Of a stretch of 7,292 nt of DNA, positions 2,416 through 7,292 are shown piece by piece. The stretch covers positions 1-7,292 of the forward strand of contig JANQRM010000617.1 of assembly GCA_028284565.1 (NCBI GenBank), in the 5' to 3' direction. The notes beneath the pieces are model-generated. The model saw only the letters and a list, made by a program, of their open reading frames with translations. It had not been told where the DNA came from and did no database searches. Source of the stretch: Anaerolineae bacterium (GTDB lineage: Bacteria; Chloroflexota; Anaerolineae; Aggregatilineales; Phototrophicaceae). Positions within the stretch are counted from its first letter, which is position 1, and the number at the start of each line of letters is the position of its first letter. The position numbers and the translations under genes were made by a program.

Positions 2416-3162
2416 TTAGTCGTCGTTATTCCCAAAAAGTTGTTCAGGCTTGATGGTGAACATATAGCCCACACCGCGTTCGGTACGAATGTAATGGGGA
2501 TGATGGGAATCCGCTTCGAGCTTGCGACGGAGGCGATGCATATGCACCCTTAGCGTATCTTCCCCAACTTCTTCGGCGGGCCAGACACGGGCAATTAACA
2601 TCCGATTTTCCACAACTCGTCCGGCGTTGCGCAGGAGGACATGAAGCAAAATCGACTCGGTTGGGGTAAGCCCAATGGATTTTTCTTGAAGCACAATGCG
2701 ATTGTGTGCAAAGTCGATTTGGAGATGTTGGTCAACATCAATGACCGGTTCACTAGCGTAGTCGAAGGTGGGAATTCGTGCTAAAACCACAGAAATGCGT
2801 GCTTCAAGTTCTCTTAATTCAAAAGGTTTGACAATAAAATCTTCTGCGTATTTACGAAGCCCCTGCACGATTGTATCCGTATCACCCGTTGAGGTCACGA
2901 ACATAATCGGCACATCTGCCATAGATTTGAGCTTATTTGCCAATTCAAAGCCATGCATACTGGGCAAACCAAGGTCAATGAGAGCGATATGCGGGAGTCC
3001 CTTTTCTTTAACATATTCAAGGGCTTCTGGGGCATCCTCAAAGGTGACAACACTATAGTCCTGCTTCGTCAGGAAGTCTGTCATCAATTGACCCACAGTT
3101 GGGTCATCTTCAACAACCATGATTTTTTGTTTTTTTGCTCTGGTCATGATTATTTTCCACAT
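2416..3162 (-). CDS. OmpR/PhoB-type response regulator (receiver plus winged-helix DNA-binding domain)
   Basis: This is a two-component transcription regulator: a receiver domain takes phosphate from a histidine kinase and a winged helix binds DNA. In 248-residue numbering the receiver spans about 12-130, with acidic pocket E18-D19-D20, phospho-acceptor D63 (LIDLGLP), switch T90 and K112 in VKPF. The usual switch Tyr is Phe109. The effector domain (about 145-236) has LTPTES at 165-170, the recognition-helix pattern TLRVHMHRLRRKL at 203-215 and the wing RTERGVGYMF at 226-235. The longest frame starts at 3162, but its AGGGG touches that ATG. The ATG at 3147 (MTRAKKQKIMVVEDD) has GGA about eight bases upstream and suits the family better, giving 243 residues. 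No histidine kinase lies in the window, so it is locally an orphan. It is divergent from the PBP-like gene and followed by a strong terminator. Phosphorylation partner and targets are unknown. Confidence 0.95.
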   Translation of the reverse strand: MWKIIMTRAKKQKIMVVEDDPTVGQLMTDFLTKQDYSVVTFEDAPEALEYVKEKGLPHIALIDLGLPSMHGFELANKLKSMADVPIMFVTSTGDTDTIVQGLRKYAEDFIVKPFELRELEARISVVLARIPTFDYASEPVIDVDQHLQIDFAHNRIVLQEKSIGLTPTESILLHVLLRNAGRVVENRMLIARVWPAEEVGEDTLRVHMHRLRRKLEADSHHPHYIRTERGVGYMFTIKPEQLFGNNDD

Positions 3163-3179: not shown

Positions 3180-3208
3180 TTGTAACGAATATACACCATA
3201 TGTAATAT
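3180..3208 (+). promoter_or_regulatory. Possible rightward promoter for the PBP-like gene, overlapping the leftward one
   Basis: TTGTAA (3180-3185) and TAATAT (3203-3208) are spaced by 17 bases on the plus strand, each four of six to consensus, with TG directly before the -10. It lies almost on top of the leftward promoter. The leader to the ATG at 3343 would be about 130 bases. AT-rich sequence makes chance matches common, so this is tentative. Confidence 0.3.
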
Positions 3209-3216
3209 TAAGTCAA
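3188..3216 (-). promoter_or_regulatory. Sigma-70-type promoter for the response regulator
   Basis: On the minus strand a -35 box TTGACT (3216-3211) and a -10 box TATATT (3193-3188) are separated by exactly 17 bases; each matches consensus at five of six positions. Transcription would start near 3181, giving a leader of about 34 bases to the ATG at 3147. This also supports that start, because an ATG at 3162 would leave only about 19 bases. Confidence 0.65.
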
Positions 3217-3242: not shown

Positions 3243-3309
3243 GTCTAGGTGAAGTCGATGGTCAGATTGTCCTAGACGGGAGTTGCGTCTATAAGGTGTC
3301 GTGCTAGAC
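3243..3309. repeat. Cluster of CTAGAC repeats in the leader of the PBP-like gene
   Basis: GTCTAGG (3243-3249) and CCTAGAC (3271-3277) form a perfect 7-base inverted pair. CTAGAC recurs at 3304-3309. TAGACG (3273-3278) can also pair with CGTCTA (3286-3291) around a seven-base loop. The copies at 3272 and 3304 are 32 bases apart, about three helical turns. They could be operator half-sites or alternative leader RNA hairpins. Confidence 0.35.
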
Positions 3310-6297
3310 TCAAGGCAAATTTTTGGCGAGGAATTTGATTTTATGGCATCAGTCGCGCATATCGTGCGTCGTCGTCGCGCACGGAAGAGTCGCCGTCGGG
3401 CAGAAAAACGAGAACGTCGCATTTGGTTGAGTATCGCCATTGTATTATTAGCGGTGCTGGTCATCGCGCCGATAGTGACGGTCTTCGGCTTGGCATTGGT
3501 TTTATATGGACAGGCAACGCAACATCTTCCCACACCTGCGGAGACGATTTATCTTGACCCCATTATAGGTACTACTCAGCTGGTTGACCGTAGTGGAGGA
3601 ACTTTGATTTATGCGCTACAAGACCCCCTTGGTAATGAACGTATCTGGATAGATTTGGAGGAGATGCCATCACTTGTTTTGGATGCAACGCTTATGATGG
3701 AGGACCCTGACTTTTTGGACGCGACTCGTTTTGATATCAGTCGCGCCTTTACACAGATGTGGCAATATATCTTGGGTGGGACGATCCCACGAGAACGCTC
3801 GATTGCTGGACGTTTAATTGACAAGACTTTGCTTCCCCAAGCGCGCCAACCGGAACTGGATTCAGCCTTACTTGATCTTACCTTTCGTCATGAGATTAAA
3901 AGGCAATTTAGCCCGATAGAATTGCTTGAATGGTATCTGAATACGAATTTTTATGGCAACGATGCCTATGGCATATCTGCGGCGGCAGAAGTCTATCTCG
4001 GTAAGTCGGTACAAGATTTGACAGTGGACGAAATTGCCTTACTGGTTGCTATTCCGCCCGAACCACGCTTTAATCCCTTCGATAATCTGACGGCGGCAAC
4101 CGGACGGCGAGATAATCTCTTACGGGATTTGTTGGCAAATGGGCATATCTCTCAAGTGGATTTTGATACAGCGATTGCACGGGCGACTCCCTTGCGTCGT
4201 GATTTGATTCAATCACCCTTCTTCGCGCCCGATTTTGCCTTGTATGCGAGAGAACAAGCCGAAGGCATCCTTGATTCACTCGGACTCGATGGCTCAACGA
4301 TGGTATCACGCAACGGTCTGCGAATTACCACAACACTCGATATGGATTTGTATCTGCAAGCGGATTGTGCCTTGCGCGCCCATTTGCGACGCTTGCAAGG
4401 TGTGTCTGCAAATGATGTGACCCAAATTGATACGCCCTGCACCACGTTAAATTATCTGGTGCAACCCTTCAATGTTGACCCATCGATTCCGCCGACAGAA
4501 GGGGCATTGGTCGCGATTAATGTCGATACAGGTGAGATTTTAAGCATGGTCGGGACAGCAACAGATGTGCGCTATCAACCGGGTCCGACTCTCCAGACGT
4601 TTGCCTATTTTGAAGGCTTTTTGCGTCGCTTATTTACGCCTGCTTCGATGGTGCTGGATATTCCTCAACCCTTCACAGGTCCCGCAGATGGCTTGATTTA
4701 TACGCCCAGTAATCCCGATGGGGTTTTTCGGGGTCCCGTTAATTTGCGCGATGCGATGGTGAGTGGTCTGTTACCGCCTGTGGTTTCCGTCGCCGATAGT
4801 CGTGGGATGAGTTCGGTATTAGTGTCAGCACATCTAATTGGCATCAACAGCTTGGATACGCGCGCGAGGACGTATGATTTGTCTCTGTTGGAGCGTGGTG
4901 GCACTGTGTCCGTGCTGGATATGACCTATTCGTATTCTGTATTTGCGTCAATGGGTGTGATGAACGGTATTGATACCGACCCAATTGATACGGGCTTTCG
5001 CACTCGCGATCCAGTAGCTGTCTTACGGATTGAAGATGCAGATGGAAACGTGCTATGGGAATATGACGAGACGATTCAACAACTCAGCCAATCAAGTGTC
5101 TTTGAGCCAAGTTTAGGCTTTTTGGTGAACGATATTTTGTCTGACAGTGCCACTCGTCGCTCGGTTTTAGGTATCAATGATGAGACATTGACCCTCACTC
5201 GTCCATCGGCAGTGGTCAACGGTTTGACGAGTGATTTCTCAGAAAACTGGACAGTAGGCTACACACCACAACTGGTAACAGCAGTACATCTGGGGCGGTT
5301 TGATGGACAGGCGATGTCGATGGATGTGCATGGCTTGCAGGGGGCGACGATTGTCTGGCGTGCTTTAATGAATTACGCACATGACCGCGACGGCTTACCC
5401 ATCGAAGATTGGACTCAACCCCCCGATGTCGAAAGTTATGTGGTGTGTGACCGTTCAGGTCTCATTCCAAGCGGGACGAATCCTTGCCCGACCCGCCAAG
5501 TACTCGTGCCACCCGGTTCGCTGATTTTGGAGGATACCTTCTGGCAGAGTGTAGAGATAAACAGTCAGACGGGTCAATTGGCGACAGCGAATACCGAAGA
5601 TGCGCTACGAACCGAAGCAGTCTACTTCATCCCACCGGATTCAGCGATGGAGTGGTGGGTCGCAAATAATCAACCACTACCGCCTACTGAGTTCGATACC
5701 TTGAGTCGTCCTGAAGTGTTGCAAGCGGTGCAAATCCTCCAGCCCGATGATTTTGCCTATGTTGGAGGTGTACTAGACGTGCGTGGCACGATTGATGATA
5801 CGGATATTGAGTATTATCAATTGTCCTTTGGAGAAGGAGTGAACCCGCGTGAATGGTTGGATATTGGTGGACAACAGACAGAATTTACACCCGGTACTTC
5901 TCTGATAGCGTGGGATTCCGCTGGATTAGATGGAGTCTATACGTTGCAATTGTCGGTGGTCTTCAACGACGGCAGTATTGACAATGCCACTACGCTAGTG
6001 ACTGTGGATAACATCGCACCAACAGTCGATTTGCAAGCAGGGACACTGGGGCAGGTCTTCCGCTTCCCAACCGAAAGTGTGATACCACTGACGGCGAATG
6101 CAACGGACAATCTGGCGATTGATCGCGTGGACTTTTATCACAATGGCTTGTTCCTCGGCACGGATGAAGAATGGCCCTATGGCTTTGAGTTCGACATCAC
6201 GCGCACCGGAATTGAAGTCTTTACAGCTGTTGTCTTTGATGAGGTCGGCAACAGCACGCAACAGGATATTGAAGTCGAAGTGGTTCGGGATGGTTAA
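3301..6297 (+). CDS. Class A PBP-like protein with degenerate GT51 and transpeptidase active sites and C-terminal Ig-like domains (probable pseudoenzyme)
   Basis: A 998-residue envelope protein with bifunctional PBP layout. It has a basic tail (22-40), a membrane helix (41-70), a GT51-like domain (about 95-295), a transpeptidase-like domain (about 400-695) and a C716/C729 segment, probably a disulfide. Two Ig-like domains follow (about 806-904 and 906-995). Scaffold landmarks are strong: LLEWYLN (208-214), FRGPVNLRDA (476-485) and WTVGYTP (650-656). Catalytic motifs are not. SxxK is PTLQ (429-432), SxN is GLL (489-491), KTG is VNG (639-641). In GT51, E134-D135 survives, but the GSTITQQ region reads RSIAGRL (166-172) and RKxxE reads SALLD (188-192). 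Ungapped matches around the transpeptidase motifs make misalignment unlikely. It probably cannot polymerise or crosslink glycan; its role is unknown. The ATG at 3343 (GAGG 11 bases upstream, then the basic tail) is the likelier start, giving 984 residues; GTG at 3301 is possible. The uninterrupted frame argues against a pseudogene. Confidence 0.9.
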   Translation: MLDSRQIFGEEFDFMASVAHIVRRRRARKSRRRAEKRERRIWLSIAIVLLAVLVIAPIVTVFGLALVLYGQATQHLPTPAETIYLDPIIGTTQLVDRSGGTLIYALQDPLGNERIWIDLEEMPSLVLDATLMMEDPDFLDATRFDISRAFTQMWQYILGGTIPRERSIAGRLIDKTLLPQARQPELDSALLDLTFRHEIKRQFSPIELLEWYLNTNFYGNDAYGISAAAEVYLGKSVQDLTVDEIALLVAIPPEPRFNPFDNLTAATGRRDNLLRDLLANGHISQVDFDTAIARATPLRRDLIQSPFFAPDFALYAREQAEGILDSLGLDGSTMVSRNGLRITTTLDMDLYLQADCALRAHLRRLQGVSANDVTQIDTPCTTLNYLVQPFNVDPSIPPTEGALVAINVDTGEILSMVGTATDVRYQPGPTLQTFAYFEGFLRRLFTPASMVLDIPQPFTGPADGLIYTPSNPDGVFRGPVNLRDAMVSGLLPPVVSVADSRGMSSVLVSAHLIGINSLDTRARTYDLSLLERGGTVSVLDMTYSYSVFASMGVMNGIDTDPIDTGFRTRDPVAVLRIEDADGNVLWEYDETIQQLSQSSVFEPSLGFLVNDILSDSATRRSVLGINDETLTLTRPSAVVNGLTSDFSENWTVGYTPQLVTAVHLGRFDGQAMSMDVHGLQGATIVWRALMNYAHDRDGLPIEDWTQPPDVESYVVCDRSGLIPSGTNPCPTRQVLVPPGSLILEDTFWQSVEINSQTGQLATANTEDALRTEAVYFIPPDSAMEWWVANNQPLPPTEFDTLSRPEVLQAVQILQPDDFAYVGGVLDVRGTIDDTDIEYYQLSFGEGVNPREWLDIGGQQTEFTPGTSLIAWDSAGLDGVYTLQLSVVFNDGSIDNATTLVTVDNIAPTVDLQAGTLGQVFRFPTESVIPLTANATDNLAIDRVDFYHNGLFLGTDEEWPYGFEFDITRTGIEVFTAVVFDEVGNSTQQDIEVEVVRDG

Positions 6298-6961: not shown

Positions 6962-7292
6962 ATGTCCGAGCAACAAATCCGGCAATTGCTGAAGTTGGGA
7001 ATCGTTTCGCTAAAAGAGGGAGATAAAGACAAAGCTCGACGTGCCTTTCTGGCAGTGATTAAACTTGATTCCAAAAGTGAGCCCGCATGGATTGGATTGC
7101 TATCAGCAGGGAAGGATTCCAAAGAGCAACTGACCGCGCTCAAACGCCTGCTGGAAATCAACCCAGACCATCCCAAAGCATTGGAAACCCTAGCGCGTGC
7201 CGGATTGAATCGTGAACAACTCTTGGGCAAAACGGTCACTGGGGCATTAAGCGAGCAAGCTCCCCAACCGAGTAAGACTACTGCTGTTCCTG
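6962..7292 (+). CDS. TPR (tetratricopeptide) protein, N-terminal part; 3' end outside window
   Basis: The frame is open from ATG 6962 to the right edge (110 codons) with no stop. The start is well supported by AAGGG (6951-6955) six bases upstream; no in-frame ATG was found in the 35 bases upstream. Residues 6-38 form a TPR-like helix pair (LLKLGIVSLKEGDKDKARR, then AFLAVIKLD). Residues 40-75 form a second (PAWIGLLSAG, KEQLTALKRLLEINPDHPKAL). This opening, one TPR pair followed by an 'INPDHPKALETL' segment, is in my memory a common N-terminal module of Chloroflexota proteins, which then continue through a Pro/Ser/Thr linker into varied, often membrane or regulatory, domains. The linker seems to begin near residue 96. 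No signal peptide is present. TPRs mediate protein-protein contacts; the true function depends on the missing C-terminus. Confidence 0.85.
   Translation, partial: MSEQQIRQLLKLGIVSLKEGDKDKARRAFLAVIKLDSKSEPAWIGLLSAGKDSKEQLTALKRLLEINPDHPKALETLARAGLNREQLLGKTVTGALSEQAPQPSKTTAVP

Follow-up and report, generated by a model that had tools for sequence, protein, structure and literature searches.

The 7,292-nucleotide stretch of DNA analysed here (the window) carries a gene for a relative of the class A penicillin-binding proteins (PBPs), enzymes of cell-wall synthesis and targets of penicillin, in which the residues of all three transpeptidase motifs and of GT51 motifs II and III are replaced, and by sequence comparison it belongs to a family of such full-length proteins, with catalytic residues replaced, in an uncultured Chloroflexota group. 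Because the catalytic residues are replaced while the rest of the protein is preserved, we consider it most likely (probability of about 0.6) that the protein is a membrane-anchored, non-catalytic class A PBP descendant that would serve wall synthesis as scaffold or regulator and not as an enzyme; its inactivity itself, as well as its contacts with intact PBPs and the wall, is what we infer from this pattern. The preliminary description of this DNA, made from the sequence alone, had regarded the subfamily as undescribed, and in open-licence PMC text no description of it was found among the matches listed.

The positions of the gene, its motifs and the neighbouring regulator are given in Table 1. 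The ATG at position 3343 was preferred as start codon over the GTG at position 3301 because the N-termini of most relatives align at the ATG. The preliminary description had located the motifs correctly at 4585..5223, which runs from the start of codon 415 to the end of codon 627, and since it counted residues from the GTG, its P429, Q432, L491 and V639 are P415, Q418, L477 and V625 here; the frame without stop or frameshift that it described is indeed open.

Table 1. Positions of the features of the pseudo class A PBP gene and its upstream region in the window.
Feature	Position	Strand	Remarks
Divergent OmpR/PhoB-type response regulator gene	2416..3162	-	Response_reg and Trans_reg_C
Conserved intergenic site GTAAYGAATATACANNNNNTGTAAYATT	3182..3209	+	20-47 bases from regulator start
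Pseudo class A PBP CDS	3343..6294	+	984 aa; stop codon 6295-6297; open frame
Basic cytoplasmic tail (MASVAHIVRRRRARK...) and membrane helix, residues 1-59	3343..3519	+	Helix 5-59 in model
GT51-like domain, residues 97-262	3631..4128	+	PF00912, 85 bits (cut-off 27)
GT51 motif I Glu-Asp, E120 and D121, kept	3700..3705	+	Glu in 198/206 dead rows
GT51 motif II position, RERSIAGR	3790..3813	+	GGSTITQQ or close variants in canonical relatives
GT51 motif III position, SALLD	3862..3876	+	RKxxE in canonical relatives (VKxxE in 12)
Transpeptidase-like domain, residues 385-680, without lysine	4495..5382	+	
SxxK position, P415-T-L-Q418	4585..4596	+	Alignment
SxN position, G475-L-L477	4765..4773	+	Alignment
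KTG position, V625-N-G627	5215..5223	+	Alignment
First C-terminal module, residues 690-800, Cys pair C702/C715	5410..5742	+	Cys frequency
Two Ig/FN3-like beta-sandwich modules, residues 801-984, the second being Big_7	5743..6294	+	PF17957

The motifs were compared in an alignment of 300 rows, comprising 94 canonical rows and 206 rows of the type with replaced catalytic residues (dead rows: the window protein, the best 120 of 611 protein matches and 85 genome loci, where proteins and loci may overlap), and counts refer to rows with a letter at the respective column. The Ser of SxxK was present in 0/206 dead and 93/93 canonical rows, its Lys in 1/206 and 93/93, the Ser of SxN in 4/206 and 93/93, its Asn in 1/206 and 93/93, and the Lys of KTG in 0/206 and 92/92, which bears out the earlier claim that all three transpeptidase motifs are lost (P-T-L-Q, G-L-L and V-N-G in the window protein). 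A displaced motif, which the preliminary description had named as evidence against its reading, did not appear: neither S..K nor K[ST]G was found anywhere in the whole 984-residue sequence of the window protein. In 6/206 relatives (P0002, P0007, P0087, P0092, P0096, P0111) an S..K lies roughly seven residues N-terminal to the Ser column. The replacement residues recur, with Q, H or Y at the SxxK Lys position in 170/206 dead rows, L at position 417, L or R at the Asn position and N-G for T-G; position 415 itself is variable (P, V, A, L, I, T, G and others). Compared with canonical relatives the protein is about 13 residues shorter just ahead of the SxxK position, a difference that had gone unnoticed earlier.

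The PF00905 model gave no match to the window protein at an E-value of 0.1 and none to 32 family members at 0.001, and it matched 11/11 canonical relatives. Six of the best 120 homologues (P0038, P0041, P0048, P0051, P0058, P0065) carry a precomputed PF00905 label and despite this label lack the Ser and both Lys. In the structure model, residue 415 starts a helix (414-427) and residues 625-627 lie on a strand (623-628), in agreement with the motif positions proposed earlier.

The GT51-like domain is altered as well, a loss that had escaped the preliminary description. After motif I the window protein has ATR versus NPG in canonical relatives. At motif II the first Gln is found in 0/206 and the second in 1/206 dead rows, and at motif III the Lys is found in 2/206 and the Glu in 148/206, the window protein having Asp at the latter position. 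PF00912 matches 32/32 family members at an E-value of 0.001. When compared with a working class A PBP, the window protein has the membrane anchor followed by a GT51 domain and the transpeptidase fold, and lacks GT51 motifs II and III as well as the SxxK, SxN and KTG motifs.

According to the structure model the bifunctional fold is kept in the window protein. The C-terminal arm, modelled alone, reached a pLDDT of 93.8, and a Foldseek search with it returned the FN3-like modules of CbhA (3pdd, E-value 3.6e-11) in the first row and mostly Ig/FN3-like structures overall, with no ligand named. The frequency of the Cys pair C702/C715 is 1.0 (rounded) in the 203 dead-type and 86 canonical full-length rows, and basic tails similar to that of the window protein also occur in the eight canonical proteins compared. 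The window protein (3343-6294) contains only five lysines in 984 residues (15, 22, 161, 186, 221), none of them after residue 221, and for residues 385-690 the mean number of lysines is 1.7 in the dead family versus 6.2 in canonical relatives.

The GT51 and transpeptidase folds are arranged in the same order as in Pseudomonas aeruginosa PBP1A (4oon), Streptococcus pneumoniae PBP1a (2v2f) and Escherichia coli PBP1b (5hlb), from which the window protein differs by the replaced transpeptidase catalytic residues and GT motifs II-III and by having a Cys-pair module and Ig/FN3-like modules in addition. Canonical Anaerolineae class A PBPs (L003, L160, L163) share its domain architecture, basic tail and Cys pair, and some of their loci also the divergent regulator, but they retain the GGSxITQQ-type, RKxxE (VKxxE in some), SxxK, SxN and KTG motifs and are 29-39% identical to it. 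The window protein scored 163.2 bits against the PBP1C family (PbpC, TIGR02073; best stretch residues 411-774) and 235.8 bits against the PBP1A family (TIGR02074; residues 100-681), below the respective cut-offs of 494.2 and 508.75 bits, and BiPBP_C, a PBP1C feature, had no match in it at an E-value of 0.1.

To determine the distribution of the family, 7999 candidate proteins were scored, of which 611 matched; the catalytic Ser was found in none of the best 120 of these 611 matches, and relatives with 41-62% identity have the same losses. Among 80 loci from named genomes, L001 and L002 were dead and the other 78 canonical where covered (L071, L079 and L080 are incomplete). The order of genome G001 was surveyed by running a 32-row family profile against 151 genomes, which, like the genomes of this study in general, are mostly draft metagenome assemblies. 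A match was obtained in 149/151 (none in G036 and G147), with 81 genomes scoring at least 1121 bits and the next 987 bits. The motifs of 101 order loci were checked and classified 85 as dead and 16 as canonical, with G055 in both groups; the 85 are the 81 together with an incomplete copy in G083 and the loci of G051, G099 and G121. L157, L159 and L161 are canonical-like by score and dead by motifs; the score is not a safe way to tell the types apart. A further 40 order loci were assigned by motif to the canonical type (31), the dead type (5) and a degenerate sister type (4); the five dead loci (G041, G069, G075, G092, G100) comprise the transpeptidase half and the arm only and fall inside the dead clade in a 70-row tree.

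Altogether, the same losses sought among Chloroflexota orthologues at the suggestion of the preliminary description were found in 90 genomes of the order (140/151 checked), next to 4 genomes with the sister type and 46 with canonical genes only; outside the 140 are G015, G019, G032, G033, G070, G127, G129, G136 and G149 and the matchless G036 and G147. The length of the protein is 950-1010 residues in 83/85 dead loci. In a sample of 249 genomes of the class, 87 matched at an E-value of 1e-200; 74 of these genomes lie outside the order set, and among the 74 no score exceeded 842 bits. The best 40 of these 74 loci comprised 39 canonical loci and one with a partial loss (G336), and fragments could hide among the remaining 34 loci and the genomes under the threshold.

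In a phylogenetic tree constructed by a quick method with the motif columns removed, 42 chosen dead rows formed one clade (SH-aLRT 100) that included the window protein, beside 34 canonical and 5 outgroup rows, two of the latter being the degenerate second PBP of G001 and G002. The stem branch of the dead clade measured 0.66 in this tree, which was made without the sister type. Pairwise dN/dS (NG86) was 0.056-0.269 for dead pairs (among 30 of 59 pairs), with 0.045-0.394 for the GT and 0.043-0.285 for the transpeptidase domain, and 0.038-0.272 in nine canonical pairs; apart from a few others, the values of at least 0.2 in dead pairs belong to the sub-branch L197-L202. Judged by these ratios, the dead gene is under purifying selection. 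Taken with the fold that is kept and the losses common to orthologues, values well below 1 (among 30 of 59 pairs) uphold the earlier view of a maintained pseudo-PBP.

Module identities were compared for pairs at 40-50% overall identity (1694 canonical versus 1796 dead pairs). Mean identities of GT, TP, C2 and Big_7 were 0.59, 0.54, 0.33 and 0.33 in canonical and 0.47, 0.49, 0.41 and 0.43 in dead pairs. The GT and transpeptidase domains are thus the most and the arm the least conserved parts of canonical proteins, and these differences are nearly gone in the dead family, where lower identities in GT/TP and higher ones in the arm show that constraint has shifted towards the arm.

Partial losses were also observed outside the dead clade. 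The degenerate sister type (L263, L264, L266 and L268 in G027, G014, G021 and G006, respectively) has Ser at position 415 in L263, L264 and L268 and Gly in L266, and all four proteins carry Arg in place of the SxxK Lys and Y in place of the KTG Lys, read DA[AT] around SxN, and are without GGSTITQQ. As Ser is present at position 415 in three of the four, the loss of residues in this branch is incomplete. In the unrooted 70-row tree a branch with SH-aLRT 99 separates the dead clade and the sister branch from the remaining rows, with the sister type between the dead clade and the canonical rows, and the sister type may represent an intermediate stage or else a second, separate loss. The G336 protein (L314, G336:C3:60874-63804), which has QPGSALQ and QTG, a kept SYN and an unusual GT motif region, is nested among canonical rows in the same tree (97), and on its motifs and placement it is a separate partial loss. 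A second class A PBP of G001 and G002 is degenerate (L237, G001:C7:38000-46000; L238, G002:C617:1-4027; frames of 1444 and 1173 residues): QLPGATV or QLPGATI replaces QPGSxxK (Ser to Ala, Lys to Met or Leu) and KIN replaces KTG, the GT motifs are altered and SxN is kept. In six relatives of it (L239-L244), Ser and Lys of SxxK are retained, as is K[TS]G. Given this degenerate second PBP, loss of class A PBP catalysis seems to be recurrent in the class.

The presence of catalytic copies beside the dead gene was examined by running a canonical profile on 60 of the 90 carriers. A canonical copy was found in 1/60, namely G055 (1320 bits), and the best match in the other 59 (at most 926 bits) was the dead gene itself (part of it in G102). 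The two G055 genes lie on contigs of 7.2 kb (G055:C88, L174) and 5.9 kb (G055:C129, L175), and since both forms are on short contigs contamination is possible. All 60 carriers have 3-6 GT51 matches, the best of at least 182 bits, compared with 85-93 bits for the dead gene in the window (PF00912, 85 bits), in G001 and in G002; G001 and G002 each have two GT51 proteins whose motifs are intact over the part that the contigs cover. The dead gene has probably replaced the canonical orthologue, and because adjacency to the regulator is probably ancestral, conversion in place is favoured; an old duplication followed by differential loss is a possible alternative. At slightly better than even odds, we lean towards the view that in a branch of this Anaerolineae order an ancestral class A PBP became a permanent non-catalytic part of the wall machinery, dead in both domains, and replaced the enzyme, and that further class A PBPs in this class (the sister branch, the G336 gene, the second PBP of G001 and G002) are following, a repeated natural split of structural from catalytic function.

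The preliminary description had suggested a scaffold, regulatory or ligand-sensing role, and a role of this kind may well apply. As a scaffold or regulator, the protein would keep the non-catalytic half of the work of a class A PBP: anchored by its tail and membrane helix, it would sit in the wall-synthesis machinery, with the GT and transpeptidase folds as docking surfaces or as a non-acylatable pocket and the Ig/FN3-like arm extending into the wall, and by these contacts it would position or tune the cell's intact PBPs. Class B PBPs have, to our knowledge, no GT51 domain. Two of them, Bacillus subtilis PBP 2B (PMC5656894) and Clostridioides difficile PBP3 (PMC12713402), are reported to have a catalysis-independent role in wall assembly, which is a precedent for a PBP serving wall assembly without activity of its own, but one that differs in that the role was shown there for natural enzymes, either inactivated or in a function independent of catalysis.

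A sensor, in which the dead pocket would bind lipid II or a wall fragment without being acylated, with the signal passing through the divergent response regulator to wall genes, is unlikely on balance. It draws on the orthologous regulator that lies divergently upstream of 21/85 dead loci (22/85 with L236, where the side is uncertain; 19/75 among dead loci with at least 1300 bases upstream), on the single regulator match at an E-value of 1e-60 found, adjacent or not, in 19/20 carriers tested, and on the conserved site beside the regulator, which occurs within 4 mismatches at 18/22 regulator-adjacent dead loci and at L224 and at 0/5 canonical loci, and is absent from 200 shuffles of the window and from shuffles of 60 loci. 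However, adjacency is absent from most loci, G002 has no regulator match at an E-value of 1e-60, no histidine kinase gene was found within the window, and the link extends to catalytic orthologues (5/16 canonical loci of the order and the canonical L003), the regulators being 62-79% identical to that of the window at dead and 46-52% at canonical loci; the adjacency is probably ancestral. The site is so close to the regulator that it may be merely its promoter, and we regard it as probably a promoter or operator of the regulator. Beta-lactam sensors of the BlaR1/MecR1 type are acylated at an active-site Ser, and such an acylatable Ser is absent in the window protein.

It is rather improbable that only transpeptidation was lost and that lipid II is still polymerised by the altered GT51 site. 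The motif I Glu in 198/206 rows and the motif III Glu in 148/206 suggest that some members might still transfer glycans, and PF00912 is above its cut-off in the window protein and matches all 32 members, but the motif II Gln residues and the motif III Lys are almost entirely gone, the window protein has Asp for the motif III Glu, and the motif I Glu is missing in 8/206. That the remodelled pocket performs a new chemistry appears very unlikely: the recurring replacements would fit it, yet no conserved nucleophile takes the place of the Ser at the variable position 415. The least credible reading is a decaying gene or sequencing artefact, to which the long stem branch and a gene in two frames in one genome (G127) could point; decay was rejected on the low dN/dS (well below 1, among 30 of 59 dead pairs) and constant length, and the losses are common to relatives at 41-62% identity. 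Decay of orthologues, which the preliminary description had set against its own reading, is accordingly not general, with G127 as the case that departs from this. Its family gene (G127:C153:5375-8300) is in two frames that meet near profile position 565, owing to sequencing error or decay.

What class A PBPs do beyond catalysis is difficult to study separately, since inactive mutants are artificial. A naturally occurring family without catalysis and with the rest conserved would show which surfaces matter without it, and would turn the non-catalytic role into a testable question about the binding partners of the tail, the folds and the Ig-like arm. For a PBP without an acylatable Ser, covalent inhibition by beta-lactams would not be expected.

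Besides the regulator, no neighbour cluster common to the whole family was found in 51 sequences including the window; local neighbours are common within sub-branches, for instance L152/L155/L156 and L147/L149. On the reverse strand the window further encodes a DUF5996 protein (915-1703), a DoxX-like protein (1769-2275) and a 111-residue protein without Pfam match (488-823), for which no homologues were found at an E-value of 1e-4 in the other 50 loci compared. On the forward strand, positions 6962-7291 hold the first part of a TPR-repeat protein gene that is truncated by the end of the window.
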